Below are positions 10,507-15,420 of a stretch of 49,730 nt of DNA, in pieces. The DNA is from Terriglobia bacterium. Lineage in GTDB: Bacteria > Acidobacteriota > Terriglobia > Terriglobales > Acidobacteriaceae. The position numbers and the translations under genes were made by a program. The notes under the pieces were generated by a model. The model was not told the DNA's origin. It saw only the letters and a program-made list of their open reading frames with translations, and made no database searches. Each line of letters starts with the position of its first letter. Position 1 is the stretch's first letter. The stretch is taken from positions 1 to 49,730 of the forward strand of contig JAIQFW010000059.1 in assembly GCA_020073105.1 (NCBI GenBank). The letters run 5' to 3'.

Positions 10507-11637
10507 ATGCCGAACGTGCATCCTTTTCACAGCGACGACCCGCGCTTGCGGCCGATTTATGACCGCCTGCTTGCCGGGGAACGCCTGAGCCCGGACGATG
10601 CTCTCGCCCTGTACCGCACCGGCGACCTTTTGGCCGTCGGCTGGATGGCAAATTACGTCCGCGAGCGCATGCACGGCGACAAGACTTACTTCAACGTCAA
10701 TCGCCACCTCAATCCCACCAACGTATGCGTTGCCGCTTGCCGTCTCTGTGCCTTTGGCCGCAAGAAAGACACCCCGGGCGCTTATACCATGGCGTTGGAA
10801 GAAGCATTCGAGACCGCGGCTTCGGGTTACAGTGAAACCGTCACCGAATTTCACATCGTCGGCGGACTGCACCCCGACCTGCCGTTCCAGTATTTTCTTG
10901 ATCTCATCTCCGGCCTGAAGCAACGATTCCCGCATGTCCATCTGAAGGCCTTCACTATGGTCGAGGTCGCTTACCTTGCGAAGCGCGCCAAGCTTTCGAT
11001 TCGCAAGACCCTCGAACAATTGAAAGACGCCGGAGTGGACTCGCTTCCCGGTGGCGGGGCAGAGATCTTTGCCGACCGCGTGCGGCACATCATTTGTGAC
11101 CACAAGATTGATGGCGACCAGTGGCTGGAAACCGCCAAGCTCGCCCATCAGATCGGGCTGAAATCGAATGCCACGATGCTGTACGGCCACGTCGAGAATG
11201 ACGAAGACCGGGTGGACCATCTACTGAAGCTGCGTACTCTGCAGGATGAAACCCACGGCTTTCAGACCTTCATTCCCCTGGCCTTCCATCCCGATAACAC
11301 GCCGCTGCAGCATCTGCCGAAAACCACTGGCATGCTCGACATCAAGCAGATCGCAGTCAGCCGCCTGGTGCTCGATAATTTCCCGCACATCAAAGCTTAC
11401 TGGCAGATGATGACCTCCAAGATCGCCCAGATCGCCCTGCGCTTTGGCGCCGATGACATTGACGGGACGGTAATTGAAGAGAAAATCTACCACGATGCCG
11501 GCGCCACCACCCCCCAAGGCATGCACCGGGAAGAACTGGTTCGCCTGATCCGTGAAGCCGGGCGTGAGCCCATCGAGCGCGACACCCTCTATCGGCCGGT
11601 GACCAGGACGGAGACGTCGGTCACGGTGGCGGTGTGA
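10507..11637 (+). CDS. mqnE: Aminofutalosine synthase, radical SAM enzyme of menaquinone biosynthesis
   Basis: 376 residues from the ATG at 10507 (MPNVHPFHSD). Adds the chorismate-derived enol ether to adenosine-derived chemistry to give 6-amino-6-deoxyfutalosine. The radical-SAM cluster motif is C74-x3-C78-x2-C81 in TNVCVAACRLCAF. Further family landmarks are FHIVGGLHPDLPF, LKAFTMVEV, DSLPGGGAEIF and GADDIDGT-EEKI. LPGGGAEIF and the C-terminal length favour MqnE over the related MqnC. The futalosine route to menaquinone is thus likely. The Shine-Dalgarno match is weak. Confidence 0.92.
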   Translation: MPNVHPFHSDDPRLRPIYDRLLAGERLSPDDALALYRTGDLLAVGWMANYVRERMHGDKTYFNVNRHLNPTNVCVAACRLCAFGRKKDTPGAYTMALEEAFETAASGYSETVTEFHIVGGLHPDLPFQYFLDLISGLKQRFPHVHLKAFTMVEVAYLAKRAKLSIRKTLEQLKDAGVDSLPGGGAEIFADRVRHIICDHKIDGDQWLETAKLAHQIGLKSNATMLYGHVENDEDRVDHLLKLRTLQDETHGFQTFIPLAFHPDNTPLQHLPKTTGMLDIKQIAVSRLVLDNFPHIKAYWQMMTSKIAQIALRFGADDIDGTVIEEKIYHDAGATTPQGMHREELVRLIREAGREPIERDTLYRPVTRTETSVTVAV

Positions 11638-11848
11638 CTCGCGACTGGCTTGCGGGCAGGAGTAAAACCACGGGAAGTGGTTGTGCGCAAGGGCATACAT
11701 CACAGTCGCCTGCTTCAAAGTACCCAAGGCAGCCGAAACCGTTGTCCCTGCCGGAATTTGCGTTTGTCCGTTTCCCGCGGGTGTAGAATCGGCTTGTAAG
11801 GAACCGGAAATCTTTCATGGGATCTGCTCCCGTGGTCCGAGGCCTGGC

Positions 11849-12832
11849 ATGAACGTCCACTTTAGCTACAAGGACTGCAAGACTCCTGACGTCGAGAAAG
11901 AAATCAACCACCTCATTGAGAAGCTACGCAAGCGCTTGCAGGTCTTTCGCCCGGACCTGGTGCACCTGCGGGGCGGAATTGAGCAAAACTCGCCCCGCGA
12001 GGGGACGACGGTTTCGCTGAATCTGCGGTTACCCTCGGGGCAAATGGCGGTGCAGAAGTCGGCCCCCACTGCTTCCGCAGCGGTGAAAGCGGCTTGCGAT
12101 GAACTGCTGCAGCAGATTGGCAAGCACAAAGACCTGTTGCGCAGCACCCACAAATGGTCGCGGCGCCGGGTGGCGGGTTTCCGCCCGGAATCGCAGGTGC
12201 CTTTTGAGGAGACGGTGGCTGCGATCCAGGTACCGATGGCTTCATCCGACGACATTCGCTCCTATGTCAACGCCAATCTTGCCCGTCTGGAGCGCTTCGT
12301 GGAACGGGAGTTGTATTTCCGGGAGACCGCCGACGAGATGCCCCCTGACTCCGTAACCAAGGAGGAGGTCGTCGACGCGAAGACGGGTCGGCTGGCGATG
12401 CGCGCTATCGACGATCTTTCCCAGAACACGGAGGAGAGCACGTCGTCGGTTCACCTGGAGGACTCGGCGCGGCGGCGGAATGTGCGCGGCAGTGACGAGG
12501 CTGAACTGCAGTTCCACCAGCCTGACGAAACCTTGACGGGGGAGAGTGTGATCGCGGACCGGCGTACCGCTACGCCTGAAGACATTGCCTCCTCCGATGA
12601 AATGATCGCGCTGGTGCAGTTTGCGCTGAATGGTGCCAGCCGCCACGACCGGGAGTCGTTCATCTTGCACGCGGTGGAAGGCTTTTCGGTGGACGAGATC
12701 GCCGCCATCACTGACCGCCCACCGGAGGAGGTGCGGTCTTCAATTGCCAGCGCACGGAAGCACGTACGTAGCTCCGTCCCCATCGCTGGCCGATTCAAAG
12801 ACAAACTGCTGGGAGTGTCCACGACCGACTGA
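11849..12832 (+). CDS. HPF/RaiA-type ribosome-associated domain fused to a sigma-70-like region
   Basis: 327 residues from the ATG at 11849; an AGG lies 7 bases upstream. Residues 1-105 resemble HPF/RaiA/S30AE hibernation factors: a beta-alpha-beta start, VHLRGGIEQNSPREGTTVSLNLRLPSG as two strands (quoted here only in outline), then the helix AAVKAACDELLQQIGKH and a basic segment KWSRRR. Residues 133-180 (LARLERFVERELYFRE, KEEVVD) look like a degenerate sigma region-2-like helix bundle. Residues 246-311 are a sigma region-4 HTH: FALNGASRHDRESFILHAVE, then FSVDEIAAITDRPPEEVR, ending SARKHVRSS. A baeRF gene follows 33 bp downstream, so they are probably one operon. It may link ribosome dormancy to transcription; that is inference. 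Confidence 0.8.
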   Translation: MNVHFSYKDCKTPDVEKEINHLIEKLRKRLQVFRPDLVHLRGGIEQNSPREGTTVSLNLRLPSGQMAVQKSAPTASAAVKAACDELLQQIGKHKDLLRSTHKWSRRRVAGFRPESQVPFEETVAAIQVPMASSDDIRSYVNANLARLERFVERELYFRETADEMPPDSVTKEEVVDAKTGRLAMRAIDDLSQNTEESTSSVHLEDSARRRNVRGSDEAELQFHQPDETLTGESVIADRRTATPEDIASSDEMIALVQFALNGASRHDRESFILHAVEGFSVDEIAAITDRPPEEVRSSIASARKHVRSSVPIAGRFKDKLLGVSTTD

Positions 12833-12865
12833 ACGAGCATCTAACCGCACTCAGGAGAGATCGTG

Positions 12866-14047
12866 ATGATTACACGCGAAGATATCCGTGAGCTGGCCCA
12901 ATTCCAAAGCAACGGGGACAAAAATTGCGCACTCAGTTTCTATTTCGAACCGGCTACGCCCCAGAACAAGTCGCATCGCGCCGAGACTATTCTCGTCAAA
13001 GAGCTTGTCCGGAATGCGGCCAGGGAAGCCGAAAAGATCGGTAGAAATGGATACGCCCGGGCTGATCTGGACCGCATTCTGGCCTTGGCGGAAAATTTGC
13101 ATGGTAACCAGGCCCGTGCGAAAGCTGTGTTCGCTTGTGGCGCCCGCAATTTCTGGCGAGAGTTTGACTTGCCGGCGCAGTTGCCGGTGACGCAACTGTT
13201 CGTAAACCAACGCTTCCACCTGAAGCCCTTGGCTGTGCTCCTGGGTGCGCAACCGAGACTGTGGGTGGCGCTTGTCGATCGCCAGAAGGCACGCTTCTTC
13301 GAGCTTCGCCTGGATGAGCTGAACGAGCGCGAGGGGCTATTCCGGACCCCGCCAGCTCGCCAGGGCCGCAGCGATGGATTCGCTGGCTACGACGGTGGCC
13401 ATGCGCAACGCCGGGTCAACGATGACGTCCTGCATCACTTCAAAGATGTAGCCGGGCACCTGCAGAACGCCCTGGAGAAGGGCTTCTTTGAGAAACTGAT
13501 TATTGGCTGCCACGATACCCCCTGGCATGAACTCGAGTCGCTGTTACACCCATACGTCAGGAAGAGGCTACTAGGCCGCTTTTCGGCGGATGTGGGCAAG
13601 ATGACCAATGACCACATTCGGGAGCAAGCCGGCCAGGTTTTGCACGAAGCGCTCGACCGGCGCCGGCACGAGCTGGTGAAGGAAGTCCTGGACCAGGCAA
13701 AGAGCAACAGCCGGGGCGTGACCGGGTTGCGCCGGGTACTGCGGTCGCTCGAATTGGGTGAGGTGCAAACACTGCTAATCGGGGAAAACTTTTCTCACGC
13801 CGCGGTCGAATGTACAGGCTGCGGCCACCTCGACGGGCACCTGGTCCGGCATTGTCCCGCCTGCGGGCGTGAGACCCGGGAAGTGGCGGATGTTTGTGAC
13901 ACGATCATTCCAGTGGCCATCCGCCGCGATATCGAATTGTTCTACGTGAAAGATGATCCCGAGTTCGATTCTGCCGGAAACATCGCGGCGCTGCTGCGGT
14001 TCCGCGCGGACCAAAGTAAGGGAAACGTCTCGTCGGCCGTCTCGTAG
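12866..14047 (+). CDS. Bacterial archaeo-eukaryotic release-factor-like protein (baeRF family; Balon/Pelota/eRF1 relative)
   Basis: 393 residues; AGGAG lies 8 bases before the ATG (GTG at 12863 is also possible). The C-terminal third matches domain 3 of aRF1/Pelota: LRRVLRSLELGEVQTLLIG, a zinc ribbon with Cys316, Cys319, Cys330 and Cys333, and GNIAALLRF in place of the eRF1 GGIGAILRY. The central domain (about 130-270) has AGYDGGHAQRRVNDD, where the release-factor GGQ is GGH (177-179); the peptidyl-tRNA-hydrolysing Gln is therefore missing. Proteins of this superfamily include the hibernation factor Balon. Its position after an HPF-domain gene supports a role on stalled or dormant ribosomes. 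Exact baeRF subfamily not determined. Confidence 0.8.
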   Translation: MITREDIRELAQFQSNGDKNCALSFYFEPATPQNKSHRAETILVKELVRNAAREAEKIGRNGYARADLDRILALAENLHGNQARAKAVFACGARNFWREFDLPAQLPVTQLFVNQRFHLKPLAVLLGAQPRLWVALVDRQKARFFELRLDELNEREGLFRTPPARQGRSDGFAGYDGGHAQRRVNDDVLHHFKDVAGHLQNALEKGFFEKLIIGCHDTPWHELESLLHPYVRKRLLGRFSADVGKMTNDHIREQAGQVLHEALDRRRHELVKEVLDQAKSNSRGVTGLRRVLRSLELGEVQTLLIGENFSHAAVECTGCGHLDGHLVRHCPACGRETREVADVCDTIIPVAIRRDIELFYVKDDPEFDSAGNIAALLRFRADQSKGNVSSAVS

Positions 14048-14193
14048 GAATGACAACCGGGAACTGACCACTGACAACTGGTTGTCTATCCCCTGTGCCG
14101 CCGCTGTGGCGGGTCGTGCCGGTTCGGATGCAGTTAGCTCCGGCGTGATATTCTGTCGCACGCTTCGCAAGCCAGAGTTTCGCCGGAGGCAAG

Positions 14194-15420
14194 ATGACCA
14201 TCTCACGCCGCGACTTTTTGGGCACCGCGGTTGCAGGTTCGCTATCGCTGGGACTACTCGATTCCAAGGGCAATGGGCAGGAGTCCAAAAAGAACGAGGC
14301 TGTTCCCTCCGGCAAACGCCCCATCATCATTTGCGCGCACAACGGTTACAACTATCTCGACGACGCTTACCCCTTTCTCGCCGCTGGCGGCGACACCCTC
14401 GATGCAGCCCTGAAGGTCGTAAAGGGCCCGGAGGACGACCCCAATGACACCAGCGTCGGGCTCGGTGGCCTACCCAACGAAGAGGGCGTGGTGGAATTGG
14501 ACGCGTGCTGCATGCATGGACCGACGCGGCGCGCCGGCTCGGTCGGCGGTGTGCGCAACATTAAGAATGTGTCTCAGGTGGCGAAGGCGGTTATGAATCA
14601 CACCGGCCATGTGATGCTGGTCGGGGAAGGTGCGGAGCGGTTCGCCGTAGCGCAGGGATTTCCGAGGGAGAATTTGCTCACGGAGCACTCGCGAAAGATC
14701 TGGCTGCTGTGGAAGGAGTATCACTCGACGGGAGACTGGTGGGGGCCGGGTTTGGCCGACCCGCACTGGCAGCCGCCCAGGGAAAAGCCGCAGGTGGGCC
14801 TGTGGCAGGAGCGTTACCGGCGATTGGACGAAATCGCCGCCAACCTTGGCATTGCGCCCGAGTTCCGTAACGAAGCCGTGCACAAAGTCTTGTTTCCCCC
14901 CACTGGGACGATTCACTGTTCAGCGCTCAACGACAAGGGCGAGATCTCGGGCTGCACCACCACCAGCGGTCTGGCCTACAAGCTTCCGGGACGATTAGGC
15001 GACTCGCCGATCATCGGTGCCGGCTGCTACACCGACCAGGACGTGGGCTCGGTGGGCGCGACCGGCAGCGGGGAAGAGAACATCAAGGTGGCGGGCGCGC
15101 ACACCATCGTCGAGAACATGCGGCGCGGTACGTCTCCGCAGGACGCCGGCATGGACGCGCTCAAGCGCATCGCGCGGAACTACAACAATGACATGAAGAA
15201 GCTGCAGTTCGTGGACATGGTCTATTACATTCTGCGCAAAGACGGTGCGTACGCAGGCGTTTCGTTGTGGGATAGCTACGAGGCTTCCAAGCCGCACACC
15301 ATCGCAGTTCACGACGGCACCAAACGCCAGGAGAAAACCGTCGCGTTGTTCCAGGGTGCTTCGCGGGACTTTCCTCCAGACCCGAAAGTTCCCGCCGAGG
15401 TGATGAAGGAATTCAAGTAG
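14194..15420 (+). CDS. Tat-exported N4-(beta-N-acetylglucosaminyl)-L-asparaginase / isoaspartyl peptidase-type Ntn hydrolase
   Basis: 408 residues. The N-terminus carries a twin-arginine signal (SRRDFLGTAVAGSLSLGLL). The family makes an inactive precursor that cuts itself before a threonine which then acts as nucleophile; here that is Thr239 in TGTIHCSAL, followed by CTTTSGLAYKLPGRLGDSPI and GAGCYTDQDVG, the substrate pocket signature. The residue before the nucleophile is Gly rather than the Asp of Flavobacterium glycosylasparaginase. The enzyme would cleave asparagine-linked amides in the periplasm. The gene stands alone. Confidence 0.9.
   Translation: MTISRRDFLGTAVAGSLSLGLLDSKGNGQESKKNEAVPSGKRPIIICAHNGYNYLDDAYPFLAAGGDTLDAALKVVKGPEDDPNDTSVGLGGLPNEEGVVELDACCMHGPTRRAGSVGGVRNIKNVSQVAKAVMNHTGHVMLVGEGAERFAVAQGFPRENLLTEHSRKIWLLWKEYHSTGDWWGPGLADPHWQPPREKPQVGLWQERYRRLDEIAANLGIAPEFRNEAVHKVLFPPTGTIHCSALNDKGEISGCTTTSGLAYKLPGRLGDSPIIGAGCYTDQDVGSVGATGSGEENIKVAGAHTIVENMRRGTSPQDAGMDALKRIARNYNNDMKKLQFVDMVYYILRKDGAYAGVSLWDSYEASKPHTIAVHDGTKRQEKTVALFQGASRDFPPDPKVPAEVMKEFK

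Follow-up and report, generated by a model that had tools for sequence, protein, structure and literature searches.

The closest described relatives of this locus are bacterial gene pairs in which an HPF/RaiA-type gene lies beside a gene for an aeRF1 homologue. HPF genes are adjacent to several baeRF families, for which a joint role was proposed in 2019 (PMC6514570), and the same work singled out baeRF family 10 as having kept a conserved glutamine and being possibly active. Balon genes most often adjoin raiA (PMC10901736, 2024) and have sigma-70 genes of the alternative type among their operon neighbours. Balon, unlike aeRF1 or Pelota, is able to occupy the ribosome together with RaiA, and its C-terminal domain carries an EF-Tu-binding hairpin (PMC10901736). 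The preliminary description of the locus reported here took the arrangement of an HPF-sigma fusion followed by a baeRF/Balon-like gene to be undescribed. Novelty of the pairing as such is rejected, since HPF-baeRF and Balon-raiA adjacency is in print (PMC6514570, 2019; PMC10901736, 2024). The part of the claim that stands concerns the HPF-sigma fusion, for which searches of open-licence PMC text gave no example, although a figure or supplement may show one.

How does this locus compare with those systems? Within the window (the whole stretch of 49,730 nucleotides of DNA analysed), the two genes and their parts are arranged as follows:

11849-12832, plus strand: HPF-sigma fusion gene, 327 aa (frame and Pfam)
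11849-12145, plus strand: HPF/RaiA domain, aa 1-99 (Pfam PF02482 and the model of relative L143)
12242-12427, plus strand: sigma-2-like helical remnant, with about 20 residues lost near 12377-12388 (alignment of 81 fusions)
12644-12763, plus strand: sigma region 4-like helix-turn-helix, aa 266-305 (Pfam PF08281)
12853-12859, plus strand: Shine-Dalgarno sequence of the baeRF gene, AGGAGAG (read from the sequence)
12866-14047, plus strand: second gene, baeRF family 10/Balon-like, 393 aa from the conserved ATG
13217-13600, plus strand: middle (aeRF1 catalytic-type) domain of the second protein, the best PF18854 stretch, aa 119-246
13394-13408, plus strand: loop GGHAQ replacing GGQ (alignment of baeRFs)
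13811-13864, plus strand: zinc-ribbon cysteines CxxC...CxxC of the C-terminal domain, all 4 invariant in 67/67 baeRFs

The frame of the second gene is open from GTG 12863, and most aligned homologues begin with the residue encoded by ATG 12866 (MITRE-like); from the fusion stop to that ATG the distance is 33 nt. The 33-bp gap and the second gene's own Shine-Dalgarno sequence are as first described in both coordinates and frames, and the layout is operon-like, with both genes on the same strand; an AGGAG or similar motif was seen by eye in many intergenic gaps of relatives. Pfam bears out the gene identities, with all three models above their cut-offs: Ribosomal_S30AE (PF02482) at 32.3 bits against 23.7, Sigma70_r4_2 (PF08281) at 32.5 against 25.7 and baeRF_family10 (PF18854) at 72.4 against 27.1. 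The label "sigma" holds for region 4 and fails for the sigma-2-like part, which is cut in the window copy. Because the gap is short, we infer that the fusion and baeRF genes are co-transcribed, and by analogy with relatives solved on the ribosome they probably form a ribosome-hibernation operon. The genome of the window also contains two other HPF-domain genes (L001 and L002, at G000:C54 and G000:C5, with frames of 204 and 262 aa), and a search of it for PF18854 gave one match.

Two candidate control features precede the fusion gene:

11779-11789, plus strand: promoter-like element GGGTGTAGAAT, 59 nt upstream of the start codon
11811-11848, plus strand: 5' leader, with a predicted hairpin at 11816-11834 followed by a GAGG ribosome-binding site at 11839-11842

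The element GGTGTANAAT lies 48-68 nt upstream of the fusion start in 77 of 78 loci, the window included, and is absent in L213; this count leaves out the fusion starts of L182, L203 and L216. The 80 loci (1.44 Mb, both strands) contain the pattern GGTGTA[CG]AAT 73 times, and the 5.14 Mb genome of the window contains GGGTGTANAAT twice, the other site preceding a seemingly unrelated gene. With that single extra site, no regulon is visible for GGGTGTANAAT. Promoter activity of the GGTGTANAAT element is putative; a sigma-70 consensus scan of 11500-14300 returned no promoter ahead of the operon. Relatives show two leader types, in which the hairpin adjoins or pairs with the GAGG, and the hairpin pairs are kept in 92.5% and 83.5% of alignment cells for the two types (based on 34 of the 36 and 29 of the 32 distinct leaders). 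The leaders of L145, L158, L167 and L221 were assigned by hand to neither type, and L192 was counted with the second type of neither hand-made leader set. Covariation was weak, its score being reached by 326 of 500 shuffles for one type and 36 of 500 for the other, and the fold energy was no lower than that of shuffles (mean z of -0.2 over 77 leaders). RNAalifold gave no structure on all 77 leaders, two halves each giving a 4-pair helix alone, and an Rfam scan of 11500-14300 gave one chance match. Given the weak covariation and the shuffle-level energy, the hairpins are not accepted as proven RNA structure; the leader could be a putative control element of the operon.

The NCBIfam equivalog TIGR00741 scored 20.9 bits on the fusion, under its cut-off of 40.9. 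A structure was predicted for the relative L143 (348 aa) rather than for the window copy, and its HPF part aligns with RaiA chain 8rd8_D at Z 15.2 and rmsd 1.4 over 98 aligned residues, with a beta-alpha-beta-beta-beta-alpha fold. Along the chain the model (pLDDT 74.3) shows the HPF fold, then a three-helix sigma-2 unit and sigma-4, each of the two preceded by a disordered linker, the placement of these domains relative to one another not being readable from it because pTM is only 0.33. The model matches ECF sigma chains across sigma 2 and sigma 4, and a profile of relatives (A5) finds E. coli sigma-E at 7e-9. Median dN/dS was 0.07 for HPF, 0.08 for sigma-2, 0.11 for sigma-4 and 0.11 for baeRF (69 of 345 pairs taken, pairs with dS of at least 3 or mismatched lengths excluded, leaving 58-63 pairs per fusion part and 47 for baeRF), and both genes are under purifying selection.

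Is the fusion then a hibernation factor at all? One hypothesis is that it serves mainly as a transcription regulator, either a ribosome-tethered ECF sigma or a decoy, with the baeRF protein as a side partner. The ECF-type sigma 2 and sigma 4 folds of the L143 model speak for this, as do a sigma-2 constraint equal to that of HPF, the occurrence of fusions without baeRF, and a Pfam PhyR_sigma-like match to the window fusion that is slightly above cut-off (28.2 bits against 27) and would also fit a sigma decoy. However, the window copy has region 4 and lacks an intact region 2. The in-frame loss of about 20 sigma-2 residues is found in the window copy only (1 of 81 fusions, 0 of 80 relatives); relatives retain WLYRLA-type sigma-2 helices, and sigma-2 is intact in the L143 model. 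Because the reading frame is preserved, the loss need not be an assembly error. Among the matches listed (25 of 39 families), moreover, the NCBIfam sigma models on the fusion are all under cut-off. When the family profile is aligned with E. coli sigma-E, the sigma-4 recognition helix is seen to lack two of the latter's arginines, which we take to have a role in promoter reading; this makes promoter reading doubtful even where sigma-2 is intact. The occurrence of GGGTGTANAAT at one other genomic site also counts against a regulator with a regulon at that element. Overall, we consider it unlikely that the fusion is mainly a transcription regulator.

What, in turn, is the second protein? Besides baeRF_family10, the Pfam models for baeRF families 3 and 12 and Host_attach are above cut-off with lower scores, and the NCBIfam hibernation-factor models are far under theirs (MSMEG_1130, 57.3 of 480 bits; AOC03_06830, 51.6 of 330; Rv2629, 40.1 of 320). 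A structure model built from 54 sequences (pLDDT 86.4, pTM 0.79) aligns with the Balon chains 8v9l, 8v9j, 8rdv, 8rd8, 8rdw and 8v9k at Z 30.2-23.3 and rmsd 3.0-4.4. These chains take ranks 1-6 in VIA-align, whereas archaeal aRF1 and eukaryotic eRF1 reach Z of at most 16.5. By Foldseek E-value an archaeal aRF1 comes third, between Balon chains, with a TM of 0.48 versus 0.65-0.78 for Balon, and the sequence profile shows no Balon preference (aRF1 1.4e-8, Pelota 2.2e-8, Msmeg1130 4.9e-8). The best structural likeness of the modelled protein, which has a predicted three-domain aeRF1-type fold, is to Balon, and the Balon-like identity proposed at the outset finds support in the gap between Z of 23-30 and the values for release factors. 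The precedent invoked there, of Balon and an HPF/RaiA protein on one ribosome, is likewise real (PMC10901736), and both gene products match chains of the Balon-RaiA complex 8rd8, the RaiA match coming from the L143 model.

An alternative hypothesis is that the baeRF protein acts as an alternative release or rescue factor that hydrolyses or clears peptidyl-tRNA on stalling, after which HPF would stabilise the emptied ribosome. The glutamine-keeping, possibly active status given to family 10 (PMC6514570) favours this, the window loop GGHAQ contains a Q, and the sequence profile is as close to aRF1 as to Balon. However, across 67 aligned baeRFs (67 of 73 used, window included, 6 proteins shorter than 330 aa dropped) the loop position of the window's Q holds E in 43 proteins, Q in 23 and D in 1, although the glutamine column meant in PMC6514570 may be a different one. 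GGQ is missing at the catalytic loop in 67/67 of these paired baeRFs and NIKS occurs anywhere in 0/67; the L152 protein has a GGQ outside the loop. Balon, not eRF1, also gives the best structural alignments. With neither a loop GGQ nor NIKS, these proteins are unlikely to release peptides and are better read as a passive block of the Balon kind, so that the motifs suggest a passive A-site blocker and a rescue role appears decidedly improbable. In comparisons short of a residue-level alignment with P. urativorans Balon, the HP motif, the bL27 trap and the EF-Tu hairpin of Balon could not be located in the baeRF protein, which does have a zinc ribbon.

The hibernation-operon proposal had been made to depend on conservation of the gene neighbourhood in related genomes, and the pairing held in two overlapping sets (G084/L201 and G509/L190 are shared). 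The first comprises the best 80 of 121 named relatives of the fusion, a sample that leans to close relatives, titled Terriglobia, Terriglobales, Acidobacteriaceae, Candidatus Sulfotelmatobacter and similar groups of Acidobacteriota. The baeRF gene is immediately downstream in 74 of 78 loci (2 are without readable downstream DNA) and is missing after the fusion in L155, L167, L218 and L222. These 74 include 61 that are plainly adjacent, 11 whose baeRF frame, as called, begins further upstream and so overlaps the fusion, and two (L171 and L195) counted as paired although contig ends cut the baeRF gene. The two genes are tightly spaced in relatives too. The second set samples 250 genomes of the class, of which 54 match the fusion protein at an E threshold of 1e-12; 14 have full-length fusions (11 from the family of the window and 3 from another family) and the others match the HPF part. 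A baeRF gene lies directly 3' of the fusion in 11 of the 14 and in none of G210, G500 and G308; G301 is counted as a pair with the 5' part of baeRF at a contig end and the 3' part presumably on another contig. Searching the same genomes with baeRF gave 21 of 250 at E 1e-12, 12 of them strong (E 1e-45 or better), namely the 11 fusion pairs and G304; no HPF was found in the stretches fetched around the nine weak matches. The absence of baeRF in 4 of 78 and 3 of 14 cases means that it is dispensable to the fusion.

The HPF-sigma fusion and the baeRF pairing are separable traits. Among 297 genomes of the phylum, 13 further two-part fusions (22-34% identity) occur in other Acidobacteriota families and a 14th is cut by a contig end, and there is no baeRF near any of the 14 in stretches of up to about 6 kb on each side, some of them shorter. 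Conversely, 24 baeRF loci (L061-L084, the stronger matches of their search and including one from the family of the window) have no HPF within about 1.5 kb, and in G304 (L131) an HPF of 122 aa without sigma directly precedes the strong baeRF match, possibly an ancestral or reduced form of the pair. By eye, an aminotransferase-like gene adjoins the distant fusion in 7 of 12 loci examined (L043-L048 and L050), 5 of these 7 also having a TrmJ-like RNA methyltransferase and 4 a YhaM-type exoribonuclease-like gene, and a metallo-beta-lactamase-fold-like gene lies directly 3' of the baeRF-less fusions L035 (G210), L218 and L222.

The pairing outlasts local synteny. An mqnE-like gene (named by eye) lies upstream of the fusion in 28 of 68 loci with room for it (41%), and the gene downstream of the pair is kept in 28 of 51 (55%), versus 95% for the pair itself; baeRF is adjacent in 49 of those same 51 loci and in 6 of 6 that have neither flanking gene. 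Distances between loci measured on one protein track those measured on the other (r 0.92, 67 loci; 0 of 1000 permutations reached this value), which shows co-inheritance, not function, and some of the pairing could simply reflect shared descent inside a single class. The adjacency might instead be inherited synteny that means nothing functionally: all pairs found belong to one class, and the mqnE-like and downstream genes are often kept too. This reading is very improbable in view of the excess of the pair over its neighbours across the differing gene contexts in which it is found (G084, G334, G301 and G304) and of the recurrence of HPF-baeRF adjacency in other bacteria (PMC6514570, PMC10901736).

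How would a hibernation operon of this kind work? From the solved relatives, the HPF domain would occupy the small subunit's mRNA channel, and the Balon-like protein would fill the A site as far as the peptidyl-transferase centre with the peptidyl-tRNA left uncut; with both bound at once, the ribosome would be parked and protected. Conceivably, the zinc ribbon of baeRF takes the place of the EF-Tu-binding hairpin of Balon. The C-terminal sigma-like part would hang outside the ribosome on its flexible linker, the least certain step, and in relatives the intact sigma part probably contacts RNA polymerase or an anti-sigma and so would couple ribosome idling to transcription. With the sigma-2 half damaged in the window copy, the unit there most likely acts simply as an HPF-Balon pair. 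We tentatively hypothesize that the intact Terriglobia fusion is a ribosome-tethered sigma or decoy, held or freed on idling, and that in the window strain the sigma half was lost while the pair stayed; this is a possibility to which we give limited credence. If true, a tethered-sigma operon would switch off translation and reprogramme transcription together. If the sigma module touches RNA polymerase, there would be a direct physical link from ribosome dormancy to transcription. The natural loss of sigma-2 in the window strain makes the putative hibernation and sigma roles separable. HPF and a Balon-type protein are here joined in a single conserved operon-like unit, in bacteria of soil and peat that are known mainly through metagenomes, with an ECF-sigma module under strong selection on the HPF partner.

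Set beside known systems, the locus has partial counterparts on both its HPF and its sigma side. HibA of Archaea (PMC13324472) likewise joins an HPF/RaiA domain to an extra module, but that module is CBS instead of sigma, the protein is archaeal, and the opening of its abstract mentions no baeRF partner. ECF sigma factors with fused regulatory domains (PMC8999054) share the plan of sigma 2 and sigma 4 plus an added domain, whereas "ribosom" has 0 occurrences in the main text of that review. The baeRF-1 clade family 10 of Burroughs and Aravind (2019, PMC6514570) is closer, with PF18854 above cut-off in the window protein, HPF adjacency, and a similar role proposed there of an A-site block followed by an HPF lock; it differs in that the baeRF passages of that paper name no sigma fusion and that the loop Q is variable in the paired clade described here. 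Balon itself (Psychrobacter AOC03_06830, Msmeg1130 and Rv2629; Helena-Bueno 2024, PMC10901736) gives the best structural alignment and shares the three-domain aeRF1-type fold, the lack of both GGQ and NIKS, an HPF-family neighbour gene and, in its operons, nearby sigma-70 genes. Unlike Balon, the window baeRF has only 14-17% identity to it over the structural alignments and NCBIfam scores far under the cut-offs, baeRFs of the window type have invariant zinc-ribbon cysteines, and the HPF partner carries a fused ECF-sigma-like part. The HPF-Balon pair is thus a known one, and what is new here is the sigma fusion of HPF together with its zinc-ribbon family-10 partner.
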